A DNA stretch of 64,000 nt. Origin: Gammaproteobacteria bacterium. Lineage in GTDB: Bacteria > Pseudomonadota > Gammaproteobacteria > Xanthomonadales > Wenzhouxiangellaceae. The stretch's first letter is position 1. The number at the start of each line of letters is the position of its first letter. Shown piece after piece: positions 38,566 through 60,543 of the stretch. The stretch covers positions 54,868 to 118,867 of the forward strand of contig PXBD01000005.1 in assembly GCA_003565625.1 (NCBI GenBank). Direction: 5' to 3'. Position numbers and translations under genes: made by a program. The notes under the pieces are model-generated. The model searched no databases, was not told the origin of the DNA, and saw only the letters and a program-made list of their open reading frames with translations.

Positions 38566-38600
38566 AAAACCGCGGATGAACGCCGATGAACACCGATAGA
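38566..38600 (+). repeat. 10-bp-period intergenic repeat, copy 1
   Basis: AAAACCGCGGATGAACGCCGATGAACACCGATAGA. Confidence 0.85.
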
Positions 38601-45253: not shown

Positions 45254-46606
45254 TTACCGTATGATCGGAGACCAGGCCGGCTCGCGCGCATCGCCCTCGC
45301 TGTCGACCAGCCGCTGGCGAATCCTGCCGTCGGCAGACACGGCGGCCAGTACGCCGCGACCGTTCTCGCGCGCCGCGTACAGCACCATGCTGCCGTTTGG
45401 CGCGAAGCTCGGAGATTCGTCCAGCCGACCGTTGGATAATACACGCAAACGCTCGGTTTCGCGATCATGGATTGCGATGCGGAAATCGTTATCGCCGTCG
45501 CTATGGACCACGGCCAGGAAGCGCTCGTCCAGACCGATCGAGGCGCGCGAATTGTAGCGCCCCTCCCAGGTCACCCGCTCCATGTCGCTGCCGTCGGCGT
45601 TCATGACGTGGATCTGCGGTCGACCAGCCCGGTCGGAGGTGAAGTAGATCCGCTCACCGTCCGGCGACCAGGCCGGCTCGGTGCTGATCGACCAGTGATG
45701 GGTCAACTGCTCATGGCGCCCGCTGTCGACGTCGATCACCCAGACGTCCGGGCTGCCGCCGCGCGACAGGGCGACCGCCAGGCGACGACCATCCGGTGAC
45801 CAGGCCGGCGCGCCGTTGATCCCGCGGCTGGAGCTGACCACCTCGGTCTGGCCGGTAAACAGGTCCTGCACGATGATGTTCGAGCGTCCGGTCGCGAACG
45901 AGACATAGGCCAGGCGGCGGCCGTCCGGCGCCCAGGCCGGCGACAGGATGGGCTGGGTATTGCGCACCACGGTCTGCGGGTTGAAGCCATCGGCGTCGGC
46001 CACGACCAGCTCGAACAACTCGTCTTCACCGCCGATGTCGGTGACCACCACGTAAGCAATGCGGGTGGCGAAAGCGCCCGGCACCCCGATCAGGGCCTCG
46101 TAGACCGCGTCCGAGACCCGGTGGGCGCCGAAACGGAGATCACCGGCGGCCACCGGCAAGGCCTGGGAGAGCAGAATGCGGCCGCTATGCACATCCAGCA
46201 GGTGGTACTCGATTTCCTGGCCGATACCGTCGGGCGCATCGGTTACCCGGCCAATCACCAGGTGATCGACGCGCAGCAGCCGCCAGGTGCCGAAGCGCAC
46301 TTCCGGCGGGCGGGTCGGACGCTCGATCATCTGGGCAGCGTCCATGGCCTCGAACAGCCCCGACCGGGCCAGGTTGGCGCTGATGATATCGCTGACCGGG
46401 TTGGCCGGCTCGGGCATGTCTGAATCCCAGGCAAACGGCACCACGGCGATGGGCATGGCGCCCTCGACACCATCGACGATCTCGATCCGCAACTGGCCCT
46501 GGGCCAGCAGCGGCAAGGCCAGCAGCAACAGGCCCAGGACCGGCCGGGCGAGATCAGCCTTCAAACCGGAAAAGAAACTCGATTTCTCTGTTGAATACAC
46601 TCTCAT
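45254..46606 (-). CDS. tolB: Tol-Pal system beta-propeller protein TolB
   Basis: Repeated SPAWSPDGRRLAYVS / EPAWSPDGERIYFTSDRAGRPQIHVMNADG blades; N-terminal TolB domain. Confidence 0.95.
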   Translation of the reverse strand: MRVYSTEKSSFFSGLKADLARPVLGLLLLALPLLAQGQLRIEIVDGVEGAMPIAVVPFAWDSDMPEPANPVSDIISANLARSGLFEAMDAAQMIERPTRPPEVRFGTWRLLRVDHLVIGRVTDAPDGIGQEIEYHLLDVHSGRILLSQALPVAAGDLRFGAHRVSDAVYEALIGVPGAFATRIAYVVVTDIGGEDELFELVVADADGFNPQTVVRNTQPILSPAWAPDGRRLAYVSFATGRSNIIVQDLFTGQTEVVSSSRGINGAPAWSPDGRRLAVALSRGGSPDVWVIDVDSGRHEQLTHHWSISTEPAWSPDGERIYFTSDRAGRPQIHVMNADGSDMERVTWEGRYNSRASIGLDERFLAVVHSDGDNDFRIAIHDRETERLRVLSNGRLDESPSFAPNGSMVLYAARENGRGVLAAVSADGRIRQRLVDSEGDAREPAWSPIIR

Positions 46607-47501
46607 AACCTCGATAGGGTAGCTCACCGACGCGATTGACGGCAGCAATGATGGATCGCCGGGTGGCGGCATCGGCGTTGCAGGGTTGGACCACTTCAGC
46701 GGCAATGATTTCCCCGCCGGGAATCTGGAAAACGCGCACCGTACAGGCCACCCCCGGCCGGGTGGTCGGCGGGCGTCGCCAGTTCTGCGTCACCAGGGTG
46801 CGGATGGTAATGATGTATTCCTCGCGCAGCGTCGCCCGACGTGCATCGGCCTGGGCGCGCTCGTCGGCCAGGCGCAGGCGCTCGGCCTCTTCGCGGGCGC
46901 GGCGCTCGGCCTGTTCGGCTTCGCGACGCTGGGCAATGTCGGCCAGGCGGCGCTCCTCTTCCTGGCGCCGGCGTTCGGCTTCCTCGCGCTGGCTGCGCAG
47001 TTCGGCCAGTTCCTGCAGGCGTTCCTCCTCACGGCGCCGGCGCTCTTGTTCGACCTGGCGCTGCTGTTCCTCGCGTTGCTGCTCGGCCCGGCGCTGCTCT
47101 TGCAGTTCGCGCTGGCGGCGCTCGATCTGCTCCTGGCGGTGAGCCTCTTCCTCGGCCCGGCGCTGTTCGGCCCGACGCGCCTCCTCTGCGGCCTGGCGCT
47201 GGCGCTCGGCTTCCTGCCGGGCCTGCTCCTCGACGCGACGCTGGCGCTCGACCTCTTCGCGGCGGCGTTCTTCCTCGCGCTGTTGACGGGCCTCGCTTTC
47301 GGCCTCCTCGGCACGGCGCTGCTCGATCACCGGGCCCATATCGACCAGGGTAACCTGCACCGGCGGGAGTTGCTGCTCGAACGGCTGCCAGTTCCAGCTG
47401 CCCAGGACCAGCACGCCGACCATGAGCAGATGCACAGCCAAGGCCAGGCCCAGCGCCTGGGCCTGTTCCTTGAGCACCTGCTTGCGAGCGTCAGAGATCA
47501 T
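46554..47501 (-). CDS. tolA: Cell envelope integrity protein TolA
   Basis: N-terminal TM, long Arg/Glu/Gln-rich helix, C-terminal TolA/TonB-like domain. Confidence 0.92.
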   Translation of the reverse strand: MISDARKQVLKEQAQALGLALAVHLLMVGVLVLGSWNWQPFEQQLPPVQVTLVDMGPVIEQRRAEEAESEARQQREEERRREEVERQRRVEEQARQEAERQRQAAEEARRAEQRRAEEEAHRQEQIERRQRELQEQRRAEQQREEQQRQVEQERRRREEERLQELAELRSQREEAERRRQEEERRLADIAQRREAEQAERRAREEAERLRLADERAQADARRATLREEYIITIRTLVTQNWRRPPTTRPGVACTVRVFQIPGGEIIAAEVVQPCNADAATRRSIIAAVNRVGELPYRGYESVFNREIEFLFRFEG

Positions 47502-47519
47502 CGCCGGAAAGCAATCACA

Positions 47520-47550
47520 CCGCAGATGAACGCGGATGAACGCAGATTGA
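47520..47550 (+). repeat. 10-bp-period intergenic repeat, copy 2 (direct orientation)
   Basis: CCGCAGATGAACGCGGATGAACGCAGATTGA. Confidence 0.85.
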
Positions 47551-47628
47551 TAACGAACAGACTGCCTGCCGATGGGCGCACAGCGGCAGCAATTTCGAAC
47601 GTGATGCCAATTCCATCAGAAACACCTG

Positions 47629-47664
47629 CCTTCATCTGCGTCCATCTGCGTTCATCCGCGGTTC
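47629..47664 (-). repeat. 10-bp-period intergenic repeat, copy 3 (inverted relative to copy 2)
   Basis: Plus strand CCTTCATCTGCGTCCATCTGCGTTCATCCGCGGTTC; reverse complement GAACCGCGGATGAACGCAGATGGACGCAGATGAAGG. Confidence 0.85.
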
Positions 47665-47709
47665 CAGTTTGATTTCGAAGAACCCTGGCAGATTCCGGGC
47701 CTGGGCCGG

Positions 47710-48135
47710 TCAGTCCGGCTCGGGATCACCCACCAGCCCGACAGAAGCCACGCCGGCGCTTTGCAGGTAGACCATGGCGCTGTAGATGAACTGGTAGGGC
47801 ACGTCGCGATCGCCGCTGACCGTGACCTGGAGATCCGGATTGCGCTCGACGATGGCGCCGACCATGGCGGCCAGCGTGGCGCCGTCGACCAGCTGCGGCG
47901 TATCGCCGGTATCGAGGTAGAAATCGCCGCCGCGGGTGACCGTGACCAGCAACGGATCGCCCTGGTCGGTCATCGGATCGGCCGCGCCGGTGGGCAGGTC
48001 CACCTCCACACCCAGGTTCATCAGCGGCGCGGTGACCATGAAGATGATCAGCAACACCAGCATGACGTCGATATAGGGCACGACGTTCATTTCCGACATG
48101 CGCTTGCGGCGGCGCCGGACGTGGGTCTCGGACAT
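47710..48135 (-). CDS. tolR: TolR (ExbD family)
   Basis: MNVVPYIDVMLVLLIIFMVTAPLM. Confidence 0.95.
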   Translation of the reverse strand: MSETHVRRRRKRMSEMNVVPYIDVMLVLLIIFMVTAPLMNLGVEVDLPTGAADPMTDQGDPLLVTVTRGGDFYLDTGDTPQLVDGATLAAMVGAIVERNPDLQVTVSGDRDVPYQFIYSAMVYLQSAGVASVGLVGDPEPD

Positions 48136-60430: not shown

Positions 60431-60470
60431 AAACCGCGGATGAACGCAGATTAACGCAGATGAACACGGG
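60431..60470 (+). repeat. 10-bp-period intergenic repeat, copy 4
   Basis: AAACCGCGGATGAACGCAGATTAACGCAGATGAACACGGG. Confidence 0.88.
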
Positions 60471-60543
60471 TATCATGTCGAGCGTCGGGAGTTCCAACGC
60501 CGACGTCTCCCAATCGTCAGCTTCAAGCCACTACGGATTCATC

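Follow-up and report, generated by a model that had tools for sequence, protein, structure and literature searches.

The described system that stands closest to the element family reported here is the intervening sequence (IVS) of 23S rRNA. In Coxiella burnetii this IVS is 428 nt in length, carries a 28-bp terminal inverted repeat, displays three tandem heptamers (GACAGAT) ahead of an S23 open reading frame (ORF), and is cut by RNase III; the origin of 23S rRNA intervening sequences was still called unclear after more than 25 years (PMC4990558). REPINs, with their RAYT transposases (PMC3116915), form a second system for comparison, and the MITEs and small palindromic repeats form a third. Of the latter, ERIC/IRU, RUP and Correia/NEMIS elements are roughly 70-220 bp in length, possess inverted ends, occupy intergenic DNA in many copies, and share interior sequence from copy to copy.

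The family of tiny dispersed inverted-arm elements that is the subject of this report is apparently undescribed. No paper presenting its arm sequences in a relevant context was found in the open-access literature searched (an absence that constitutes weak evidence), and no paper in that literature linked the GxxExxY protein, which is encoded within some of its members, to inverted repeat arms or to mobility (again weak evidence, since most subscription journals lay outside the scope of the search). The library names of that protein family (TIGR04256; PDDEXK_3, PF13366) are descriptive only.

An inverted-arm element between tolR and tolA

The window (that is, the whole stretch of 64,000 nucleotides that was analysed) contains an ORF-less element, composed of inverted arms and a spacer and assigned to no strand, at positions 47518-47663 between tolR and tolA, where it corresponds to an insert of about 144 bases. 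Its left arm (47520-47547, forward strand) consists of three units, CCGCAGATGAACGCGGATGAACGCAGAT, with zero mismatches to a consensus of 102 element ends; its right arm (47634-47661, reverse strand) is inverted, reads ATCTGCGTCCATCTGCGTTCATCCGCGG, and is accompanied just inside by a degenerate fourth unit (CTTC). Between them lies a spacer of 86 bp (47548-47633, no strand) of which a second copy is absent from the genome. The arms form two convergent tracts of approximately 30 bp with the structure AACCGC(RGATGAACGC)n, and the pair was top-ranked in a de novo inverted-repeat scan of the window (21/24 match). An earlier note, made from the sequence alone, had reported an inverted pair between tolA and tolR, and both arms were indeed found at the place that it gave; the loop that it measured as about 78 bp is 86 bp by the boundaries used here.

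The surrounding operon was identified from protein profiles. The upstream neighbour, tolR (47710-48135, reverse strand), matched PF02472, the ExbD/TolR domain, at 80.8 bits, above the cut-off, and the best TIGRFAM match of its product was TIGR02801 (124 bits, just below that profile's cut-off); the downstream neighbour, tolA (46554-47501, reverse strand), matched TIGR02794 at 79.8 bits against a cut-off of 59.45, and TolQ was also confirmed near the element (TIGR02796). A consensus scan of the tolR-tolA gap recognised neither a promoter nor a terminator, and a comparison with Rfam gave no match for the element. Its sense RNA is predicted to fold into an arm stem (-76.2 kcal/mol, z = -6.8), and effects of that stem on the tol transcript are therefore possible, albeit inferred only from the predicted fold; the suggestion of the earlier note that the arms might form a long stem is compatible with these data. 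A 328-amino-acid ORF with a TTG start (46686-47672, forward strand), which runs antisense to tolA, traverses the element and ends in ...FICVHLRSSAVPV, is very probably spurious and an example of the arms generating false proteins.

Elsewhere in the window, a 16-base core of the repeat was matched 13 times with three or fewer mismatches, as compared to 1.9 +/- 1.4 matches in dinucleotide shuffles of the window, none of which gave 13. Two further loci contain arms of the same GATGAACGCR unit family on the forward strand: one at 38567-38600, in the gap between two genes that we take, from names read from the sequence, to be methionine-sulfoxide-reductase-like, and one, also intergenic, at 60431-60471. 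These are solo arms, so called because no inverted partner was found within 700 bp of either, and the earlier claim that the same element occurs at both loci was thus correct only for the arm and not for the paired element.

Dispersal, anatomy and conservation of the arms

The window feature is a dispersed element. Its genome (G000) contains 50 matches to the arm pattern with no more than two mismatches (24 forward and 26 reverse), as against 0 for a reversed-pattern control, and about 25 convergent arm pairs together with solo arms; about 20-25 pairs were found in each of G000 and two congeners, G001 and G004, and none or only one or two matches in the other sampled congeners. Other congeners harbor a different unit family (CACGAAGNN): counts of ACCACGAAGNNCACGAAG per strand are about 15-20 in G008, in G326 and in G320, the chromosome of which is closed at 3.675 Mb, and about 11 in G007, and the sequence is absent from G000. 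Beyond the genus, the exact GATGAACGCNGATGAACGC pattern was present in 3 of 298 genomes of the phylum, all belonging to a single family (f29) that also contains most of the GxxExxY genes of the phylum sample. Most genomes in the comparison were metagenome-assembled; the arms break contigs, and the repeats therefore fragment such assemblies and bias copy counts downward, so that the counts given here are lower bounds.

Comparison of the tolR-tolA gap in ten congeners demonstrated that its content is variable. An orthologous element is present in G012 (with a homologous spacer and a decayed left arm) and in G004, where both tol-region contigs (L054 and L066, on C21 and C214) end at arms. The gap holds a pair with the unit ACAGATGAAC in G002 and G010, a pair of another family (CGCAGATTT) in G009, and a CACGAAG pair in G007 and G008, and it measures roughly 23-35 bp and contains no element in G005, G011 and G021. 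Similarly, at sites where G000 carries GATGAACGCR pairs, G001 was found to carry a GCAAAG-type (L192) or GGGACCA-type (L188) pair. An ancestral tol leader was rejected, given that the gap contains other unit families or none in relatives. One clean empty site, GGAGTGATGG^CCATGACAGAG (L199), could be aligned with its occupied counterpart, GGAGTAATGG-TTTTACCGC...GCGGTTCAAGTCAAAAGTATTCAAA-CCATGACTGAAG (L090), and the extra DNA in the latter is the complete element, spacer included. No target-site duplication was found at that junction, which is the sole clean one, the others having diverged.

These observations bear upon the view that each copy arose independently, through local expansion of tandem repeats and their inversion by template switching, with the likeness between copies due to convergence or composition. 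Some solo arms and one expanded arm (L085) would be in keeping with that view, but a nearly identical 28-bp sequence lies at dozens of unlinked sites while the reversed pattern lies at 0, and unit families that are specific to species are incompatible with convergence; independent local events are all but excluded. Chance and local tandem expansion were likewise rejected on the basis of the motif excess over shuffles, the genome-wide copies and the absence of reversed-pattern matches. The earlier note had read the feature as a miniature element that is dispersed and may be mobile, and not as a local expansion. That reading accordingly held (with about 25 pairs here, similar numbers in two sister genomes, few or none in most congeners, and one clean comparison of an empty with an occupied site), and it withstood both of the checks by which it was to be refuted: further copies are many, in this genome and in two sister genomes, and the gap differs or is empty among relatives. 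The target-site duplications that were to be sought by comparing flanks, and a shared interior of the kind seen in a classical miniature transposon, were not found.

The anatomy of the family was established from 68 convergent pairs and 18 solo arms in G000, G001 and G004. The consensus of 102 ends, TKKAA-CCGC-R-GATGAACGC-R-GATGAACGC-R-GAT-RAAA, comprises three units phased at 10 bp and spans about 30 bp; its 28 core positions are 75-100% fixed, with the exception of three purine (R) sites at positions 5, 15 and 25, where A and G occur at ratios of roughly 60:40 to 50:40. Element length has a mode of 139-146 bp, a median of 141 and a range of 70-425 across the 68 pairs. Arms are nearly identical between copies and spacers are unique: an all-against-all comparison gave good spacer matches at orthologous sites only, with a few weak matches of 13-18 bp otherwise, and a search for second genomic copies of 14 spacers from the window's genome returned only self matches. 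Three candidate sources of spacers were rejected on these grounds and on that of the empty site, namely copying from DNA elsewhere in the genome (self matches only), sharing or swapping between sites (good matches at orthologous sites only), and capture of local DNA (the clean empty site contains none of the spacer). With gene directions taken from open frames and codon-position GC content rather than from annotation, 52 of the 68 pairs lie between codirectional genes, 12 between convergent genes and 2 between divergent genes. Two unusual members were also observed: the right arm of L085 (G004:C149) is expanded to a longer tandem of CCTTCATCCG-like units, and the spacer of a GATGAACGCR pair, L191 (G001:C178), contains a nested second inverted element of another unit family (ACGCAGAGACGCGG...).

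Arms outlast spacers at orthologous sites. In 27 orthologous element pairs (not all of them independent, and with flanks mostly 75-97% identical), positions of the arms other than R differ at 66/1350 (4.9%) and R sites at 67/162 (41%), and most orthologous spacers resemble each other scarcely more, or no more, than shuffled sequences do; these sites were found through intact arms, a caveat that applies to the whole comparison.

The R sites of the two arms are not independent of each other, and their pattern is one of non-complementarity. At the innermost site, with orthologues removed, left and right arms read A/A in 4 elements, A/G in 21, G/A in 19 and G/G in 0 (Fisher p = 6e-9), and the corresponding difference between arms gives p = 0.0013 at the middle site and p = 0.2 at the outer one. 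When the bases that face each other are compared, 47 of 51 elements lack a Watson-Crick pair at the innermost site, where 40 transition mismatches (A-C or G-T) were counted and 21.8 +/- 3.4 were expected; the count is 35 against 23.8 expected at the middle site and 28 against 23.0 at the outer one. Among orthologues, four double changes between A-C and G-T were seen at the innermost site. The claim is confined to the GATGAACGCR family, since a test of the CACGAAGNN family gave no significant result (22 pairs, many with irregular unit spacing and a poor fit to the template).

This pattern is the opposite of ordinary compensatory pairing, yet it may indicate a mutual constraint upon both arms, and the signature remains unexplained. 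If arms are constrained relative to each other, the suggestion is that they come together, in a hairpin or a synapse. Possible causes are that a perfect palindrome is avoided, that a wobble geometry is conserved, or survivor bias. The pairs A+.C and G.T are isosteric; a strict wobble rule is nonetheless unlikely in view of other mismatches at the innermost site (7/51). A mismatch rule between arms that persists through turnover of the variable sites would, if real, be unusual evidence of two inverted sites being read against each other.

It is in this context that a host-maintained RNA or DNA structure must be considered. According to that explanation, selection retains the arms because they serve, in transcripts or as phased sites for protein binding, to process, stabilise or insulate the junctions of operons; elements move seldom and only incidentally, and gene-bearing copies represent occasional cargo. 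In its favor, arms at orthologous sites remain conserved when spacers and variable sites have already reached saturation; codirectional genes flank 52 of 68 pairs and divergent genes only 2; the window copy's sense RNA folds into the arm stem (z = -6.8); the arms are phased at 10 bp; and RNase III cuts the related element of Coxiella (PMC4990558). Against it, the element is missing from the same junction in close relatives, and the unit families of closely related species are unrelated, so that neither a particular site nor a particular unit is needed; the strand preference of mismatches expected for RNA was not seen (A-C 42, G-U 29), a difference too weak to be accepted as evidence of RNA-level selection; the copies on which conservation was assessed had been located by their intact arms; and the explanation does not account for GxxExxY and S23 genes within arms. 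The host-structure explanation is on balance unlikely.

Genes enclosed by the arms

One element of the window's genome (L013, 425 bp) encloses a GxxExxY gene (TIGR04256, 150.9 bits against a cut-off of 35) and is the only arm pair there to do so. Its start ATG sits inside the left arm, MNADVNGLTERVIG..., so that the MNAD... sequence, which is read off an arm, is in this copy the N terminus of the GxxExxY protein; the resemblance to spurious small proteins mentioned in the earlier note also held. The window copy contains inverted tandem 9-10-bp units starting ACC(A/G)C, as do the arms of gene-bearing members, and no GxxExxY gene between them; it is counted as an ORF-less member of the GxxExxY arm-bounded family because its arms are identical to those of L013, which shares its unit family and genome and has the gene.

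The association of gene and arms recurs at most of the other loci examined. When the best inverted 24-mer around each gene was scored at a threshold of 19/24, inverted arms bounded 31 of 38 GxxExxY loci (genus and phylum) and 13 of 19 loci encoding the S23 four-helix protein (TIGR02436), whereas of 263 control windows, obtained by shifting within these loci, 0 reached that threshold. Eight further GxxExxY loci in five congeners, and most of those from other families and classes, place the gene between inverted arms of other unit families (ACCGCAGAGTACGCAGAG, ACCACGGAANNCACGGAA, CACAGATGAA, ACGCAAAG, CACCGAANN and others). The arm period is 9-10 at GxxExxY loci wherever one period is clear, and 7 or 14 in 21 of 26 S23 arms. 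Plasmid GxxExxY genes have inverted arms in Bacteroides finegoldii (22/24) and Bernardetia (20/24) and a shorter inverted match in Treponema saccharophilum, and in 6/6 plasmid cases with annotation the gene points the same way as the genes on either side.

Several individual loci deserve mention in their own right. On a Sphingomonas parapaucimobilis plasmid (L314) the GxxExxY gene lies between fabD and fabG, codirectional with both, and a clear arm is present on the upstream side only. Direct rather than inverted short repeats flank the gene in a Fusobacteria strain, in Persicobacter and, as judged by eye, in Prevotella (L310, L316 and L317). In four congeners (L098, L099, L101 and L102) a GxxExxY element occupies the same place, with mostly different unit families, and a dehydrogenase-like gene (MDTKNIKAVITGGVSGLGLAVAEHF or a near variant of it) follows directly downstream.

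A copy in G004 was found to have lost the middle of the GxxExxY gene (profile positions 36-86) and to have kept both arms, which are of another unit family; it is an internally deleted form and a direct intermediate towards ORF-less elements. No other GxxExxY gene was found in G004, and none was found in G001, which is rich in pairs (genome 65% complete).

The protein itself, assigned by Pfam to PDDEXK_3 (PF13366), is invariant in 25 aligned sequences at G26, L28, E29, Y32, D68, E78, K80, Q92 and Y96. D68, E78 and K80, with Q92/Y96, are taken to be the PD-(D/E)XK catalytic set and the QxxxY motif, as in nucleases of the RecB/Cas4 type. A structure model (pLDDT 94.6) found its best PDB fold matches in SSO0001 (4ic1), which we take to be a Cas4, LHK-Exo and lambda exonuclease, with E-values of 1e-4 to 1e-3; there was no convincing sequence match to a solved structure, and the resemblance is one of fold only. 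The GxxExxY protein is thus a minimal PD-(D/E)XK nuclease, similar to RecB, Cas4 and lambda exonuclease, in which the catalytic residues are intact and the fold is that predicted by the model. A reading as a defence system was rejected, the best PADLOC match having an E-value of only 0.018.

Two further explanations are addressed by the enclosed gene. In the first, the element would be REPIN-like and moved by a RAYT (Y1 HUH) transposase via a single-stranded hairpin; the layout is alike (inverted doublets, an unconserved spacer, ORF-less and intergenic copies, and solo ends; PMC3116915), and a target-site duplication was not seen. Against this, Y1 transposase (PF01797) was not found in G000, G001 or G004 (89, 65 and 88% complete, respectively), the arms are direct tandems and not REP palindromes, and the gene within the arms encodes a PD-(D/E)XK nuclease; the explanation is very unlikely. 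In the second, the element would be a classical MITE, derived by deletion from a DDE transposon whose terminal inverted repeats match its own, as the inverted ends, small size and many copies might suggest. This too carries very little likelihood: interiors are unshared between copies, the target-site duplication is missing at the clean junction, and the sole gene seen inside GATGAACGCR arms encodes GxxExxY and not a DDE transposase.

A proposed nuclease-based model and its relation to known systems

The explanation that is preferred, with moderate confidence, is that the tolR-tolA feature is an ORF-less member of a miniature inverted-arm family whose elements are moved in trans by the GxxExxY nuclease. 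Members of the family are bounded by inverted arms of short phased repeat units, longer ones containing a single gene, for the GxxExxY nuclease, between arms of 9-10-bp units, and a sister class containing the S23 four-helix-bundle protein between arms of 7-bp units. ORF-less copies would arise by internal deletion of the gene, followed by drift of the spacer. The element-encoded nuclease is inferred to recognise the paired arms, whether folded into a hairpin or brought together as synapsed sites, and to act in trans in moving elements, or copies of them, into intergenic DNA, such that ORF-less derivatives like the tolR-tolA copy would depend upon a nuclease encoded elsewhere. The tolR-tolA copy itself may now be a tolerated passenger in the operon transcript, which is likewise an inference.

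Several observations weigh against the nuclease model. Movement is unobserved, and no target-site duplication was found at the clean junction; the window copy lacks an ORF, and a single arm pair of its genome encloses the gene; G001 and G004, though rich in pairs, yielded no intact GxxExxY gene; most GxxExxY arms belong to unit families other than GATGAACGCR; and spacers are unshared between non-orthologous copies, which ordinary master-copy transposition would not produce except where insertion happened long ago. The lasting conservation of arms at fixed sites also points to selection for staying in place, whether in addition to mobility or in its stead.

In a bolder reading, GxxExxY and S23 elements would together form an unrecognised superfamily of minimal mobile elements in several bacterial phyla, in which the GxxExxY branch is mobile via a single-domain nuclease similar to Cas4 and lambda exonuclease, hairpins with near-obligatory mismatches serve as its substrate, unit sequence diversifies together with the protein, and the intervening sequences of 23S rRNA are merely those copies that were inserted into rRNA. 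The balance of evidence tips slightly against this extension. Were such interpretations true, they would provide a biological context and a testable substrate for the GxxExxY/PDDEXK_3 and S23 four-helix families, which are both common and of unknown function, would explain the repeats behind spurious ORFs of the MNADERR and ICVHLRSSA types, and would suggest where the intervening sequences of 23S rRNA came from. The earlier note did not anticipate a nuclease gene between the arms, the large number of interchangeable unit families or the pattern of mismatches from arm to arm.

For the present, the feature is grouped with known miniature inverted-arm elements, and to call it a new class would depend on the nuclease step, which is unproven. 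MITEs and small palindromic repeats resemble the window family in size, inverted ends, intergenic location and number of copies per genome; unlike them, the window family shares only its ends, and its unit sequence differs between closely related species. REPINs and their RAYT transposases resemble it in having two inverted conserved ends, a less conserved spacer and a predicted hairpin, and in being ORF-less and intergenic with solo ends as remnants (PMC3116915). They differ in that the window family's arm repeats GATGAACGCR, a unit without self-complementarity, in direct tandem and has no REP palindrome, that the family's spacer is without shared sequence, and that its copy-rich genomes contain no RAYT that could be found, the associated protein being a PD-(D/E)XK nuclease.

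The comparison with 23S rRNA intervening sequences is the closest. Both display terminal inverted repeats of about 28 bp (28-30 bp for the arms of the window family), short tandem units at an end, a single small or decayed ORF with no other genes, and a sporadic distribution. They differ in location, the IVS residing in 23S rRNA (helix 9, 25 or 45) and the window copy between tolR and tolA, and in content, the former combining heptamer units with an S23 ORF and the latter consisting of 10-bp units without an ORF; the coding form of the window family carries instead the GxxExxY nuclease. The dispersed S23 class found in relatives possesses both an S23 ORF and heptamer units, and thereby shares the layout of the Coxiella IVS, which supports a common family.
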